Source of the DNA: Brevundimonas sp.
GTDB lineage: Bacteria > Pseudomonadota > Alphaproteobacteria > Caulobacterales > Caulobacteraceae
Direction: 5' to 3'
Assembly: GCA_020253595.1 (NCBI GenBank)
Contig: JADCBH010000079.1
Span: forward strand, 1-35,518
Length of the DNA: 35,518 nucleotides
Shown here one piece after another: positions 36-5,393 of the stretch. The notes beneath the pieces were generated by a model. That model was not told the DNA's origin. It was given only the letters and a program-made list of their open reading frames with translations, and made no database searches. The position numbers were made by a program, and so were the translations under genes. Every line of letters begins with the position of its first letter. Position 1 is the first letter of the stretch.

Positions 36-908
36 TTAGCCGAACGTCACGTAGACGAACGCGAACAGGAACAGCCAGACCACGTCCACGAAGTGCCAGT
101 ACCAGGCCGCAGCCTCGAAGCCGAAGTGCTTCTCGGGTCGCATCTGGCCGGCCATCAACCGGATCAGGCAGACGGCGAGGAAGATGGTGCCGACCAGCAC
201 ATGGAAGCCGTGGAAGCCGGTGGCCATGAAGAAGACCGAGCCGTACAGGCCCGAGCTGGAGGCCTCTTCGTTGAAGAAGAGGTTGTCGTGCAGGATATGC
301 TCGTACTCATAGATCTGCACGCCGGTGAACAGGATGCCGAGCGCCACGGTGATGATCAGGCCCAGTCGCGCACCGCTGCGATCTCCGACCTGCAGCGCGT
401 GGTGAGCCCAGGTCACGGTCGTGCCGGACAGCAGCAGGATCACGGTGTTCAGCAGAGGCAGCTGCCAGGGATCGAGCGTCTCGATGCCGCGCGGAGGCCA
501 GGTCGACCATGCGGCGGCGGTCTCCGCCCAGCTGGATATCTCGGGGATGTGCGTGCGCGCCTCGTTGAAGAGGGCCATCTCGAAGAACATCCAGAAGAAG
601 GCCGCGAAGAACATGATCTCCGAGGCGATAAACAGCGTCATGCCGTAGCGCAGGCCGATCGAGACGACCGGCGTATGGTCGCCCTTCTGGCCTTCGCGGA
701 TGACGTCCCACCACCAGGCCCCCATGGCGTAGAGGGTTCCGGCGAGGCCCGCGAAGAAGAGGATGGCGTTGCCCTCCTCGATGCCGAACAGGCCCTTCAT
801 CCAGGCAACCGCGCCGATCATCATCACGGTCACAGTGATCGAGGAGATCAGCGGATAGGGGCTGGGATCGACCAGGTGATAGTCGTGATGCGGAGCGGCG
901 TGGGCCAT
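36..908 (-). CDS. coxC: Cytochrome c oxidase subunit III (CoxC/CtaE)
   Basis: This is the third core subunit of the aa3-type terminal oxidase, an integral inner-membrane protein that stabilises the catalytic subunit and is linked to proton uptake. The 290 residues begin MAHAAPHHDYHLVDPSPYPL, the usual alphaproteobacterial CoxC start. They show the seven-helix pattern of the COX3 family, with the hallmark segments GLRYGMTLFIASEIMFF, GFHGFHVLVGTIFL and a C-terminal AAAWYWHFVDVVWLFLFAFVY, which carries the lipid-binding and dimer-contact region. It is the last oxidase gene visible in the minus-strand cox operon, 54 nt after ctaG, so co-transcription with ctaG is likely. The stop codon is TAA at 36-38. 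Identification is secure. Confidence 0.98.
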   Translation of the reverse strand: MAHAAPHHDYHLVDPSPYPLISSITVTVMMIGAVAWMKGLFGIEEGNAILFFAGLAGTLYAMGAWWWDVIREGQKGDHTPVVSIGLRYGMTLFIASEIMFFAAFFWMFFEMALFNEARTHIPEISSWAETAAAWSTWPPRGIETLDPWQLPLLNTVILLLSGTTVTWAHHALQVGDRSGARLGLIITVALGILFTGVQIYEYEHILHDNLFFNEEASSSGLYGSVFFMATGFHGFHVLVGTIFLAVCLIRLMAGQMRPEKHFGFEAAAWYWHFVDVVWLFLFAFVYVTFG

Positions 909-962
909 GGGGTCTCTACGTCAGGCGAATGCGGAATCTGCGGAAGGCTATAGCGTCGGCTC

Positions 963-1529
963 TCAGCCCGCGCCAGTGGCCGGTGCGTCTTCCGCCGAAG
1001 GATAGAAGGTGTAGCTGAGCGTGATCTCATCAACGCCGTCGGTCTCGGCGTTTTCGGCGAGCTTGGGATCGACGTAGTACTGGACCGGGAACTGGATGGT
1101 CTGGCCCGGCTCGATGGTCTGATCATCGAAGCAGAAGCACTGCAGCTTCTGGAAATACTGGCCCGTCTGCACGGGCACGACGTTGTAGCTCGCGCGCGCC
1201 GCGATCGGCTGGTCCGAGGTGTTGGTGACGTCGAAATAGGCCAGCCCGGTCTCGCCGATGCGCACCGTCTGGGTCACCTGTTCCGCCCTGAAGGTCATCG
1301 GCAGGTTGCGGACGTTGGTGTCGAAGCGAACCTTGATGGTGCGGTCCAGAACGACGTCAGAGGGCCTGTCCGCCCGCATGGTCGTGCCGCCGAAGCCGGT
1401 GACCTGGCAGAACAGCTGATAGAGCGGAACGGCCGCGAAGGCCGCACCGGTCATGGTCAGCACGACGCCGGCACAGGCCAGGGCCACGGCCCGTGTCGAC
1501 CAACGGGTCTTGCGCTCGGGCGCACTCAT
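963..1529 (-). CDS. ctaG: Cytochrome c oxidase assembly protein CtaG (Cox11)
   Basis: CtaG/Cox11 is the periplasm-facing copper chaperone that delivers Cu(I) to the CuB site of oxidase subunit I. The 188-residue protein has a cytoplasmic N-tail, one membrane anchor at about residues 13-33, and an immunoglobulin-like copper domain. The diagnostic CFCF copper motif is at residues 131-134 within KLQCFCFDDQ, and the third conserved cysteine is at residue 41 in YQLFCQVTG. The start ATG overlaps the stop of the upstream 56-aa gene as ATGA (1526-1529), which implies translational coupling. Its place between ctaB and coxC is the normal alphaproteobacterial arrangement. Length is normal and no key residue is missing. 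Confidence 0.97.
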   Translation of the reverse strand: MSAPERKTRWSTRAVALACAGVVLTMTGAAFAAVPLYQLFCQVTGFGGTTMRADRPSDVVLDRTIKVRFDTNVRNLPMTFRAEQVTQTVRIGETGLAYFDVTNTSDQPIAARASYNVVPVQTGQYFQKLQCFCFDDQTIEPGQTIQFPVQYYVDPKLAENAETDGVDEITLSYTFYPSAEDAPATGAG

Positions 1530-1696
1530 CGGGAAGCCTCCGCCACGGCCGCGTTCATGGCCTTTCGCTCCGTCAGGTTGGACTGCATGCGCAGGAAGGT
1601 GGTCAGGAAGATCAGGACGATGAAGCCAACCAGGCCCAACGCGATCCAGAGGCTGCGGCGGTTGCGGGCCTGGAGCTGTTCGGGAGTAAGGCGCAT
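1526..1696 (-). CDS. Small single-pass membrane protein of the cox operon (CoxF-like)
   Basis: This short gene encodes 56 residues starting MRLTPEQLQARNRRSLWIAL. A positively charged N-terminus (residues 11-14, RNRR) is followed by a single hydrophobic helix at about residues 16-35 and a short charged tail, so an N-in membrane protein is predicted. It lies between ctaB (17 nt away) and ctaG, and its TGA stop overlaps the ctaG ATG in the sequence ATGA. Alphaproteobacterial cox operons commonly carry a small membrane protein here, called CoxF in some annotations, presumed to help oxidase assembly. I assign that relation from position and topology only; function is not shown by the sequence. Confidence 0.8.
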   Translation of the reverse strand: MRLTPEQLQARNRRSLWIALGLVGFIVLIFLTTFLRMQSNLTERKAMNAAVAEASR

Positions 1697-1713: not shown

Positions 1714-2667
1714 TCAGAGGGCGAAGCGTTCGACCAGCAGGGCTGCGAACAGGGCCATCAGATACAGGATCGAGAAGGCGAAGAGGTTGCGTGCCGGTTT
1801 GGCCTCAGTGCGCACATCATACAATGCGGCCTCTCGCCCCACGGCCTCGGCCTTGTCCGGCTGGTCGCCCGCGCGCGATCGCCAAAGCCGCACAGCGAGC
1901 GCCAGGAACATCAGGCCGCCGGCGATCGAGACCACGAGGTAGATCGGTCCACCCAGGCCGGTCAGACCGGGCGCGATCGCCACGGGCACGAACACCAGGG
2001 AGTAGAGCAGGATCTGCAGGCGTGTGGACTTCGCGCCCCGCGCCACCGGCATCATGGGAATGCCCGCCTTGGCGTAGTCGCCGGTCGAATACAGGGCCAG
2101 CGCCCAGCTGTGCGGCGGTGTCCACAGGAAGATGATCAGGAACAGAAGCCAGGCCTGCCAGGGGGCCTCGCCCGTCGCTGCCGCCCAGCCGATGACCGGC
2201 GGAAACGCGCCCGCTGCCCCGCCGATGACGATGTTCTGGGGCGTTCGACGCTTCAGCATCAGGGTGTAGAAGACGGCATAGTAGACGATGGTCAGCAGCA
2301 GCAGACCCGCCGCCATCCAGTTCGTGTTCATGCCCAGCAGCATGACCGAGAAGATCGACAGAACGACCCCGAAGATCAGGGCGTCGTTGGGCTTCAGCCG
2401 CCCCGCCGCGACCGGGCGGCCCCGCGTGCGCCGCATCAGGGCGTCGGTCTCGCCCTCCAGCGCCATGTTGAGCGCACCCGCCGCGCCCGCGCCGACCGCG
2501 ATGCACAGGATGGCGATGGCCGCCACCAGGGGATTGATGTCGGCACCTGCCACGACCAGTCCGGTCGCGGCGGTGAAGATCACCAGCGACATAACGCGCG
2601 GCTTCAGCAGCTGAAAGAAGTCTTCCGGCTGGGCCGTCGACAGGGCGGGGGTTGCGGACTGGGTCAT
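1714..2667 (-). CDS. ctaB: Protoheme IX farnesyltransferase (heme O synthase)
   Basis: CtaB transfers a farnesyl group from farnesyl diphosphate to protoheme IX, giving heme O, the precursor of the heme A of the aa3 oxidase encoded around it. The 317-residue protein is a UbiA-superfamily integral membrane prenyltransferase. It starts with the conserved FFQLLKPRVMSLVIFTA, carries the prenyl-diphosphate/Mg site in the form NMALEGETDALMRRTRGRPV, and has the second conserved loop around DYAKAGIPMMPVARG. Eight or nine hydrophobic helices are visible. The codon just before the ATG is an in-frame TGA, so 2667 is the furthest upstream start possible. No Shine-Dalgarno motif stands at the normal distance; the T-run of a terminator-like hairpin lies there instead. 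Confidence 0.96.
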   Translation of the reverse strand: MTQSATPALSTAQPEDFFQLLKPRVMSLVIFTAATGLVVAGADINPLVAAIAILCIAVGAGAAGALNMALEGETDALMRRTRGRPVAAGRLKPNDALIFGVVLSIFSVMLLGMNTNWMAAGLLLLTIVYYAVFYTLMLKRRTPQNIVIGGAAGAFPPVIGWAAATGEAPWQAWLLFLIIFLWTPPHSWALALYSTGDYAKAGIPMMPVARGAKSTRLQILLYSLVFVPVAIAPGLTGLGGPIYLVVSIAGGLMFLALAVRLWRSRAGDQPDKAEAVGREAALYDVRTEAKPARNLFAFSILYLMALFAALLVERFAL

Positions 2668-2668
2668 T

Positions 2669-2709
2669 CAAAAAAGCGAGGGGCCGCCTCCCGGGTCGGA
2701 AGGCGGCCC
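2669..2709 (-). terminator. Intrinsic-terminator-like hairpin between coxA and ctaB
   Basis: Read on the minus strand, a perfect 9-bp stem GGGCCGCCT/AGGCGGCCC (2709-2701 paired with 2689-2681, 11-nt loop) is followed after five bases by TTTTTT (2675-2670). Two bases later comes the ctaB ATG. This has the form of a rho-independent terminator placed after coxA. Because ctaB, ctaG and coxC lie downstream with little room for another promoter, it more probably acts as a partial terminator setting the subunit-to-assembly-factor ratio. Confidence 0.75.
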
Positions 2710-2733
2710 TCATCCTGGCATGGGGTGGAAGGG

Positions 2734-4413
2734 TTAGTGCTTGTCGGCCTTCACCACCGGCAATTCGTTGAACTGATGGTGGGGCGGCGGGCTGGACAGG
2801 GTCCATTCCAGGGTCGTGGCACCTTCGCCCCAGGGGTTGGGGACCCCGGCGCGACGACGCACGGCCGCCTCGATCAGCACGATCAGGAAGACGACCACGC
2901 CGACCGCCGTGATGGCGTAACCCCACGACGAGACCTGGTTCCACAGGGTGTAGGCCTCTGGGTAGTCGATGTAACGACGCGGCATGCCCTGCAGACCCAG
3001 GAAGTGCTGCGGGAAGAAGATCACGTTCACGCCGACGAACATGATCCAGAAGTGCAGTGCGCCCAGGAACTCGTTGTACTTCACGCCGAACATCTTCTCG
3101 AACCAGTAGTAGAAGCCCGCGAAGATGGCGAACACGGCACCGAGCGAAAGCACGTAGTGGAAGTGCGCCACGACGTAGTAGGTATCGTGCAGGCTGTAAT
3201 CGATACCGGCATTGGACAGCACCACGCCGGTCACGCCGCCGACGGTGAACAGGAAGATGAAACCGATCGCCCAAAGCATGGGGGTCTTGAAGCTGATCGA
3301 GCCGCCCCACATCGTGGCGATCCAGCTGAAGATCTTCACGCCTGTCGGCACCGCGATGATCATGGTCGCGGCGATGAAGTAGGCGCGCAGGTTCACGCTC
3401 ATGCCGACCGTGTACATGTGGTGGGCCCAAACGATGAAGCCGACGAAGCCGATCGCCACCATGGCGTAGGCCATGGCCAGGTATCCGAACACCGGCTTCT
3501 TGGAGAAGGTCGAGACGATATGGCTGATGATGCCGAAGCCCGGCAGGATCAGGATGTACACCTCGGGGTGACCGAAGAACCAGAACAGGTGCTGGAACAT
3601 CACCGGATCACCGCCGCCGGCCGGATCGAAGAACGACGTGCCGAAGTTGCGATCGGTCAGCAGCATGGTGATGGCACCCGCCAGAACCGGCAGCGACAAC
3701 AGCAGCAGGAAGGCGGTGACCAGCACCGACCAGGCGAACAGCGGCATGCGGTGGAGCGTCATACCCGGTGCGCGCATGTTGAAGATGGTGGTGATGAAGT
3801 TAATGGCGCCGAGGATCGACGAGGCACCCGCAACGTGCAGCGAGAAGATCGCAAGATCCATCGCGGGCCCGGTGTGACCAGACGTCGAAAGCGGCGGATA
3901 GATGGTCCAGCCGCCGCCGAAGCCGCGCCCCGGCCCGCCGTCAACGAACATCGACAGACAGAGCAGCACCCAGGCCGAAACGAGCAGCCAGAACGACACG
4001 TTGTTCATGCGCGGGAAGGCCATGTCCGGCGCGCCGATCATGATCGGCACGAACCAGTTGCCGAAGCCGCCGATCATCGCGGGCATGACCATGAAGAAGA
4101 TCATGATCAGGGCGTGGGCCGTGACGGTGACGTTGTAGCCGTGCTTGGAGGCCTCGACGATGCCGAGCTGCTCGATGAGGCCGCCCTCGACGAACCACTG
4201 GATACCCGGTTCGGCCAACTCCAGGCGGATGAAGCCGGACAGAACACCGCCGACGATGCCCGCCATGATGGCGAACAGCAGGTACAGCGTCCCGATGTCC
4301 TTGTGATTGGTGGACAGGAACCAGCGGGTGAAGAAGCCCGGCTTGTGATCGTGCTCTGCATGGGCGTCGTGCCCGGGCGAAGCGTGGGTGTCGGCGGTGA
4401 TGTCGGTGGCCAT
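2734..4413 (-). CDS. ctaD: Cytochrome c oxidase subunit I (CoxA/CtaD)
   Basis: This is the catalytic subunit of the aa3-type heme-copper oxidase, which reduces O2 to water and pumps protons across the inner membrane. The 559 residues hold twelve helices and all hallmark sites. [19 protein letters not shown] contains the heme a histidine. [15 protein letters not shown] contains a CuB histidine, the cross-linked tyrosine and the D-channel glutamate. [10 protein letters not shown] provides the two further CuB histidines, and [15 protein letters not shown] provides heme a3 and heme a ligands. The N-terminal [18 protein letters not shown] is typical of alphaproteobacteria. It follows coxB by 20 nt on the minus strand. 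The Shine-Dalgarno sequence is weak. The gene is intact. Confidence 0.99.
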
Positions 4414-4433: not shown

Positions 4434-5393
4434 TTACTGCGCGGGAGCGGCGGCGGCGTCTGCCGGAGCGGCGGGAACAGAAGCTTCTGCAGCGGCCGGC
4501 TGGGCCGCGTCGGCGGCCGCCGGAGCGGCGACCTGGGCGGCGGTTCCGCCCGGGGCTTCAGCGGCCGTGGCCGGGGTCATGGAACCGCCTCTGGAGGCGA
4601 CCCAGGCGGCGAACTCGGCCTCCGACACCACATTGATCTGGATCGGCATGAAGGCGTGGTCGACGCCGCAAAGCTCGGAGCACTGGCCGTAGAAGACGCC
4701 TTCGCGCTCGGCCCGGAACCAGGTTTCATTGACGCGGCCCGGGATGGCGTCGGTCTTCAAACCAAAGGCCGGCAGGGCGAAGGCGTGGATCACGTCGGAC
4801 GCGGTGACCAGAACGCGCACCGTCTTGCCGACGGGCACAACAATGGGCTCGTCCACGGCCAGGCGGAAGGGAACGCCCTGAGCCTGAGCCTCGTCCTCGG
4901 GCAGCATGTTGGAAATGTATTCCGGCACGCCCTGGTCCGGGTACTCATAGGCCCAGTTCCACTGGTTGCCAGTGGCCTTCACGGTCAGGTCCGGGGTCGG
5001 CATGTCGTGGTAGGCGAACAGCAGGCGGAACGAGAACAGCGAGATGCCGACCAGAATCATGACGGGCAGGACCGTCCAGACGATCTCCACCAGAGTGTTG
5101 TGGCTCCACTTGGCCGGGGTAGGATTGGCCTTCTTGTTGTAGCGGATCGCCACCCAGATCAGCAGGCCCAGCACCAACAGGCTGATCCCGGTGATGATCG
5201 GCATCAGGACGACGTCGTGGAAGAAATGCGCCTGGTGCTTCAGCGGCGAGGCGGCCGGCTGGAGGCCGATTCCGCCCGGCGTGGGCTGGCCCATCAGGTC
5301 CTGCGCCCATGCGGGCGCGGCGAAGAAGACGGCGAGCGAGGTCGTGGCGATGCCGCCTACGATCCCGTTCAGGGCGCGCTTGCCCAGACGCAT
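4434..5393 (-). CDS. coxB: Cytochrome c oxidase subunit II (CoxB/CtaC)
   Basis: Subunit II takes electrons from cytochrome c through its binuclear CuA centre. From the chosen start the protein has 319 residues: a signal peptide ending AWA at about residue 30, two transmembrane helices (about 60-83 and 103-126) and a periplasmic cupredoxin domain. The aromatic electron-entry motif is [12 protein letters not shown], and the CuA ligands are H203, C238, E240, C242, H246 and M249 in [18 protein letters not shown] chose ATG 5393 because GAGGA stands 8 nt upstream; the frame stays open to 5519 (ATG 5408 is another option), but that extension lacks family resemblance. The last ~48 residues form an Ala/Pro-rich tail beyond the normal end of the domain. 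It is the first gene of the cox operon. Confidence 0.97.

Follow-up and report, generated by a model that had tools for sequence, protein, structure and literature searches.

Gene order and the hairpin between coxA and ctaB

The window analyzed here, that is, the whole stretch of 35,518 nucleotides of contig JADCBH010000079.1, comes from a metagenome-type assembly of 414 contigs whose closest named relatives are Brevundimonas. Its minus strand carries the genes of a cytochrome c oxidase in the order coxB, coxA, ctaB, a 56-aa ORF, ctaG, and coxC, and gene families were assigned by HMM searches, the small ORF excepted. The features that matter for the analysis are the following:

4434–5393, minus strand: coxB, subunit II (TIGR02866), first gene of the operon
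2734–4413, minus strand: coxA, cytochrome c oxidase subunit I (TIGR02891, PF00115), stop codon TAA at 2736–2734
2710–2733, minus strand: 24-nt spacer from the coxA stop to the base of the hairpin
2681–2709, minus strand: intercistronic hairpin of 13 pairs with a 3-nt loop, from the fold and from a homologous, covarying stem in relatives
2670–2675, minus strand: run of six T (U tract) of the terminator-like site, from the sequence
1714–2667, minus strand: ctaB, heme o synthase (TIGR01473), start codon ATG at 2667–2665
1526–1696, minus strand: small membrane-protein ORF of 56 aa in the ctaB–ctaG interval, with coding signal
963–1529, minus strand: ctaG (Cox11), copper insertion factor (PF04442)
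947–976, minus strand: promoter-like element of coxC, formed by CTGGCGC (976–970), 15 nt and GCTATAGC (954–947), with a CTATA core
36–908, minus strand: coxC, subunit III (PF00510)

The product of the small ORF looks like a one-helix membrane protein, and the HMM searches gave it neither a Pfam nor an NCBIfam match.

The co-directional genes coxA and ctaB are separated by a gap of 66 nt. Read 5′ to 3′, it consists of 24 nt, the stem arms GGGCCGCCTTCCG (2709–2697) and CGGGAGGCGGCCC (2693–2681) around an acc loop, CTCGC, TTTTTT, and GA, after which comes the ATG. The outer 9 bp of the stem are perfect and G+C-rich, and one of the 13 pairs is a G-T. A sequence-only reading of this DNA had described such a 9-bp stem and six T on the minus strand between both genes, with coordinates and base counts that proved correct, and the in-frame TGA that it placed directly before the ctaB start was found at 2670–2668. 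The same reading had the hairpin end two bases before the ATG; this distance is right for the T-run, whereas the base of the hairpin lies 13 nt from the ATG, or 10 nt if GAG/CTC pairs form around a one-base bulge. Accordingly measured, the T-run begins 5 nt past the perfect stem or 2 nt past the bulged extension. The hairpin at this place is genuine and not a chance fold. Its RNA folds at −29.8 kcal/mol (z = −5.0), a stability equaled by none of 200 shuffles. When the gap was shuffled with its dinucleotides preserved, 0 of 2000 trials gave an equal stem, and no other terminator-like site within the window's first 20 kb is as strong. It has both the stable G+C-rich hairpin and the U tract directly after the stem that are expected of an intrinsic terminator. 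A search of Rfam gave no family match above the gathering score at the hairpin. An origin as a multi-copy repeat was considered and rejected: only 7 sites of the genome itself match the arm pattern exactly, a reversed control pattern is matched just as often, and the loops and stems of these matches differ, so that the hairpin is not a dispersed repeat.

Conservation among Brevundimonas and in the wider family

The sequence-only reading had named the absence of the hairpin from related genomes as evidence that would count against it, and the opposite was found. In a sample of 100 distinct coxA–ctaB gap sequences from the Brevundimonas side, a homologous stem, recognized by its GGCCG/CGGCC core, is present in 82, almost all of them from Brevundimonas, although such counts overstate the evidence because relatives share ancestry and are not independent. 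A stem score of at least 30 was reached in 80 of these 82 gaps and in 2 of 1640 shuffles. Among the other 18 gaps are some in which other palindromes have replaced the stem, one that is masked, and some from neighboring genera. When 41 distinct stems were aligned, 99.6% of the alignment cells were paired, with changes on both sides at 8 of the 12 pairs (56 such cells); the observed covariation was reached by none of 500 shuffles on any measure, and pairing fell to 47–70% when the partner was shifted by one, two, or three columns. RNAalifold predicted the same helix independently. From covariation and pairing together it follows that the RNA stem itself is under selection, and the comparison of relatives marks the hairpin as an old, selected element.

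Not every detail of the window is shared. Judged from the relatives' sequences, the six-T run and its two-base abutment to the ATG are peculiar to a few species: six consecutive T are an exception (5 of 92), stem and ATG are separated by either 8–18 nt or 28–57 nt, and many relatives have a weak U tract, which in one Brevundimonas group is reduced to GTT past the stem. In the B. vesicularis/diminuta-like group (L024–L030, L034, L092, L106), a stretch GTGTGCTATGCGG..GCGCAC is conserved between the hairpin and the ctaB ATG, and it is possibly a lineage-specific promoter or a second small hairpin.

In four of the closest relatives (L003, L005–L007), whose ctaB is 92–95% identical to that of the window and whose gaps are longer, other palindromes take the place of the hairpin. 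In L003 and L006 the gap is occupied by a dispersed palindromic repeat with the core CCTCCACCGCTTCGCGGTCCCC, which is found at about 22 places in the genome of the window itself. Another REP-like palindrome, of the GTCATCCTCGGGCTTGTCCCGAGGA type, is inserted around a hairpin in the gaps of L005, L007, L082, L124, and L108. Among the coxA–ctaB gaps of 20 further genera of the family, 51 measure at least 40 nt, and 49 of these contain one hairpin at −20 kcal/mol or lower, with a sequence usually unrelated to the Brevundimonas stem. In one genus (g21) the two genes all but touch. Beyond the family the picture is patchy, with a hairpin in some genera and nearly touching genes in many. Since other palindromes and unrelated stems fill these gaps, a foldable element seems often to be kept while its sequence is exchanged; on the other hand, the four close relatives and the nearly gapless genus indicate that this hairpin is not essential.

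Terminator-like character of the site

The T-run belongs to the hairpin. Of the 82 relatives, 64 have at least three consecutive T in the 12 nt that follow the hairpin, and none has such a run before it. A U-rich ribosome site, by which the run would be a feature of the start codon, could be ruled out, as the run does not move along with a distant ATG: of 34 gaps with at least 28 nt to the ATG, 31 have the run behind the hairpin and none has it in front of the ATG, and such a run stands before the start of 22 of 354 ordinary genes used as a control. The clearance from coxA is kept as well. The stem starts 20–52 nt past the coxA stop, mostly 20–31 nt, and in 0 of 82 relatives at less than 20 nt. 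In E. coli, terminators a few bp past a stop codon are repressed by the terminating ribosome, and full strength is reached beyond about 27 nt from the stop (PMC4824070). The T-run tied to the hairpin, together with this clearance, favors an intrinsic terminator. A third point in favor is that its tails resemble those found at 3′ hairpins elsewhere in Brevundimonas, where three T in a row are common. As a genomic background, 400 kb of one complete relative were searched with a home-made gene caller; of its 160 non-overlapping tandem gaps, 13 hold a strong hairpin, and coxA–ctaB is the only one with a stem of at least 13 pairs lying at most 16 nt from the next start. A terminator-like character inside the operon is thus well supported by the sequence comparison. 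Because some relatives are almost devoid of a T-run, the efficiency of termination would probably depend on the species, and in some relatives a stabilizing role of the hairpin is likely.

Supply of ctaB and coxC

The 200 nt upstream of ctaB hold no conserved promoter: promoter-like scores there are at background (mean 9.20) and their positions are scattered, and no excess of synonymous conservation was found at the 3′ end of coxA. A place with a stronger promoter-like score, which lies within coding sequence some 240 nt upstream of the coxA stop, might still be a promoter. Internal terminators are expected between co-directional genes that have no promoter between them, which is the arrangement found here. 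Given the lack of a conserved upstream promoter and of synonymous constraint, ctaB is probably made by read-through. Before coxC, in contrast, the promoter-like score is 10.62 at a position fixed across relatives, and the CTATA −10 core is present in 74 of the 87 distinct ctaG–coxC gaps. The element agrees at most positions with the RpoD consensus of Caulobacter, TTGaCgS/GCtANAWC (PMC8144410). Therefore coxC, with a conserved promoter-like element of RpoD type just upstream, probably escapes the effect of the hairpin. An independent supply makes sense for this gene, since it encodes a stoichiometric subunit whereas ctaB and ctaG encode assembly factors. The sequence-only reading had expected the hairpin to lower ctaB–ctaG–coxC relative to coxBA; this expectation probably holds from ctaB to ctaG, but probably not for coxC. 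The coxC element, CTGGCGC-N15-GCTATAGC, is also retained in relatives where Nudix-like and other genes sit between ctaG and coxC.

As had been read from the sequence, ctaB has no Shine-Dalgarno motif of at least 4 bases at −16 to −4. This is ordinary in the group: a clear motif precedes only 8 of the 100 ctaB genes compared, and 75% of the genes of C. crescentus lack one (PMC4117421). Ending 10–13 nt upstream of the ATG, the hairpin might be an obstacle to the 30S subunit.

Proposed mechanism and alternative explanations

The reading preferred here, with a probability of roughly two in three, is that the hairpin is a leaky internal intrinsic terminator that probably also guards the 3′ end of the coxBA mRNA, read-through supplying ctaB. 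Since nearly all relatives retain the hairpin, transcription of the operon is probably divided into two unequal parts. According to this proposal, the polymerase that has passed coxBA would form the hairpin 20–30 nt beyond the coxA stop, clear of the terminating ribosome, and a fraction of the transcripts would stop in the U-rich segment that precedes the ctaB ATG. On these the hairpin would remain to guard the 3′ end, so that coxBA mRNA would be abundant, and the other transcripts would read through into ctaB, the small ORF, and ctaG, that is, into assembly factors needed in small amounts. From this read-through mRNA, ctaB would be translated in a Shine-Dalgarno-free manner, and coxC, as a structural subunit required in amounts like those of coxA, would be topped up from its own promoter. 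We infer termination, its efficiency, the protection of the 3′ end, and the resulting expression ratio from the arrangement and conservation of these elements.

A stem that is conserved even next to a poor U tract, and that different palindromes can replace, would also be expected if the hairpin were mainly an mRNA stabilizer and processing boundary similar to that of puf, transcription reading through with little termination and an RNase cutting after the hairpin, so that the 3′ end of coxBA would be protected and the downstream part would decay faster. The precedent of puf in Alphaproteobacteria (Klug 1987, as cited in PMC6238624) and the preference of RNase E for AU-rich sites there speak in the same direction; however, T-runs right after the stem in most relatives are not needed for stabilization, and this explanation, as the main one, is unlikely. 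A full terminator that ends coxBA, with ctaB to ctaG transcribed from a promoter of their own in the 3′ end of coxA, possibly as a leaderless mRNA, is improbable: leaderless mRNAs are indeed common in Caulobacter, where 375 have been found (PMC4117421), and the T6-G-A-ATG context leaves no room for a leader of normal size, but the promoter within coxA that had been offered as an alternative finds no support in scores that are at background and scattered before ctaB, and fixed before coxC, nor in the unconstrained synonymous sites. That a few close relatives lack the hairpin could be taken as a sign of a functionless relic or a chance palindrome; covariation, shuffles, and the recurrence of hairpins across the family contradict this, and leave it very little credit.

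A further possibility, speculative and rather improbable, is a valve coupled to translation, in which ribosomes finishing coxA would partly block the hairpin at its fixed distance of 20–30 nt. If this were true, the rate of coxA translation would set the mRNA level of ctaB (heme-O synthase) and ctaG (copper chaperone), the supply of cofactors would be matched to subunit I, and translation of ctaB would also be gated where the hairpin abuts its start codon.

Relation to known systems

Internal terminators that tune the stoichiometry of an operon are already known, as is the stabilizing hairpin of puf. Terminators inside operons of Clostridia, with GC stems that are longer and U tracts that are poorer, have this tuning function (PMC9045158). 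As in the ABC-importer operons of cellulolytic species, the cox hairpin lies between highly needed first genes and downstream genes, and it shares with the clostridial terminators a long GC stem, an often poor U tract, and a proposed role in setting ratios; it differs from them in operon and phylum, in that termination was measured there and is inferred here, and in the position of the cox T-run against the next start codon (PMC9045158). The puf operon of Rhodobacter is likewise an alphaproteobacterial operon of energy metabolism with a hairpin between major and minor products, although the puf hairpin works through mRNA decay (Klug 1987, in PMC6238624), whereas the cox T-run after the stem argues for termination. 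Finally, the stem type GGGCCGCC...GGCGGCCC with its short T-run resembles GC-rich terminators with short U tracts (L- or I-shaped); those close transcription units (PMC2245857), and the cox hairpin is internal to an operon. Similar stems terminate other Brevundimonas genes.

No description of the coxA–ctaB hairpin was found in open-access papers, and its conserved occurrence in the operon for the aa3 oxidase of Caulobacteraceae, the family of the model Caulobacter, appears to be undescribed. As a concrete example from a core respiratory operon, and a widely conserved one, it would illustrate how unequal amounts of subunits and assembly factors could arise from a single operon, and the model predicts which gene escapes, namely coxC, through a promoter of its own.
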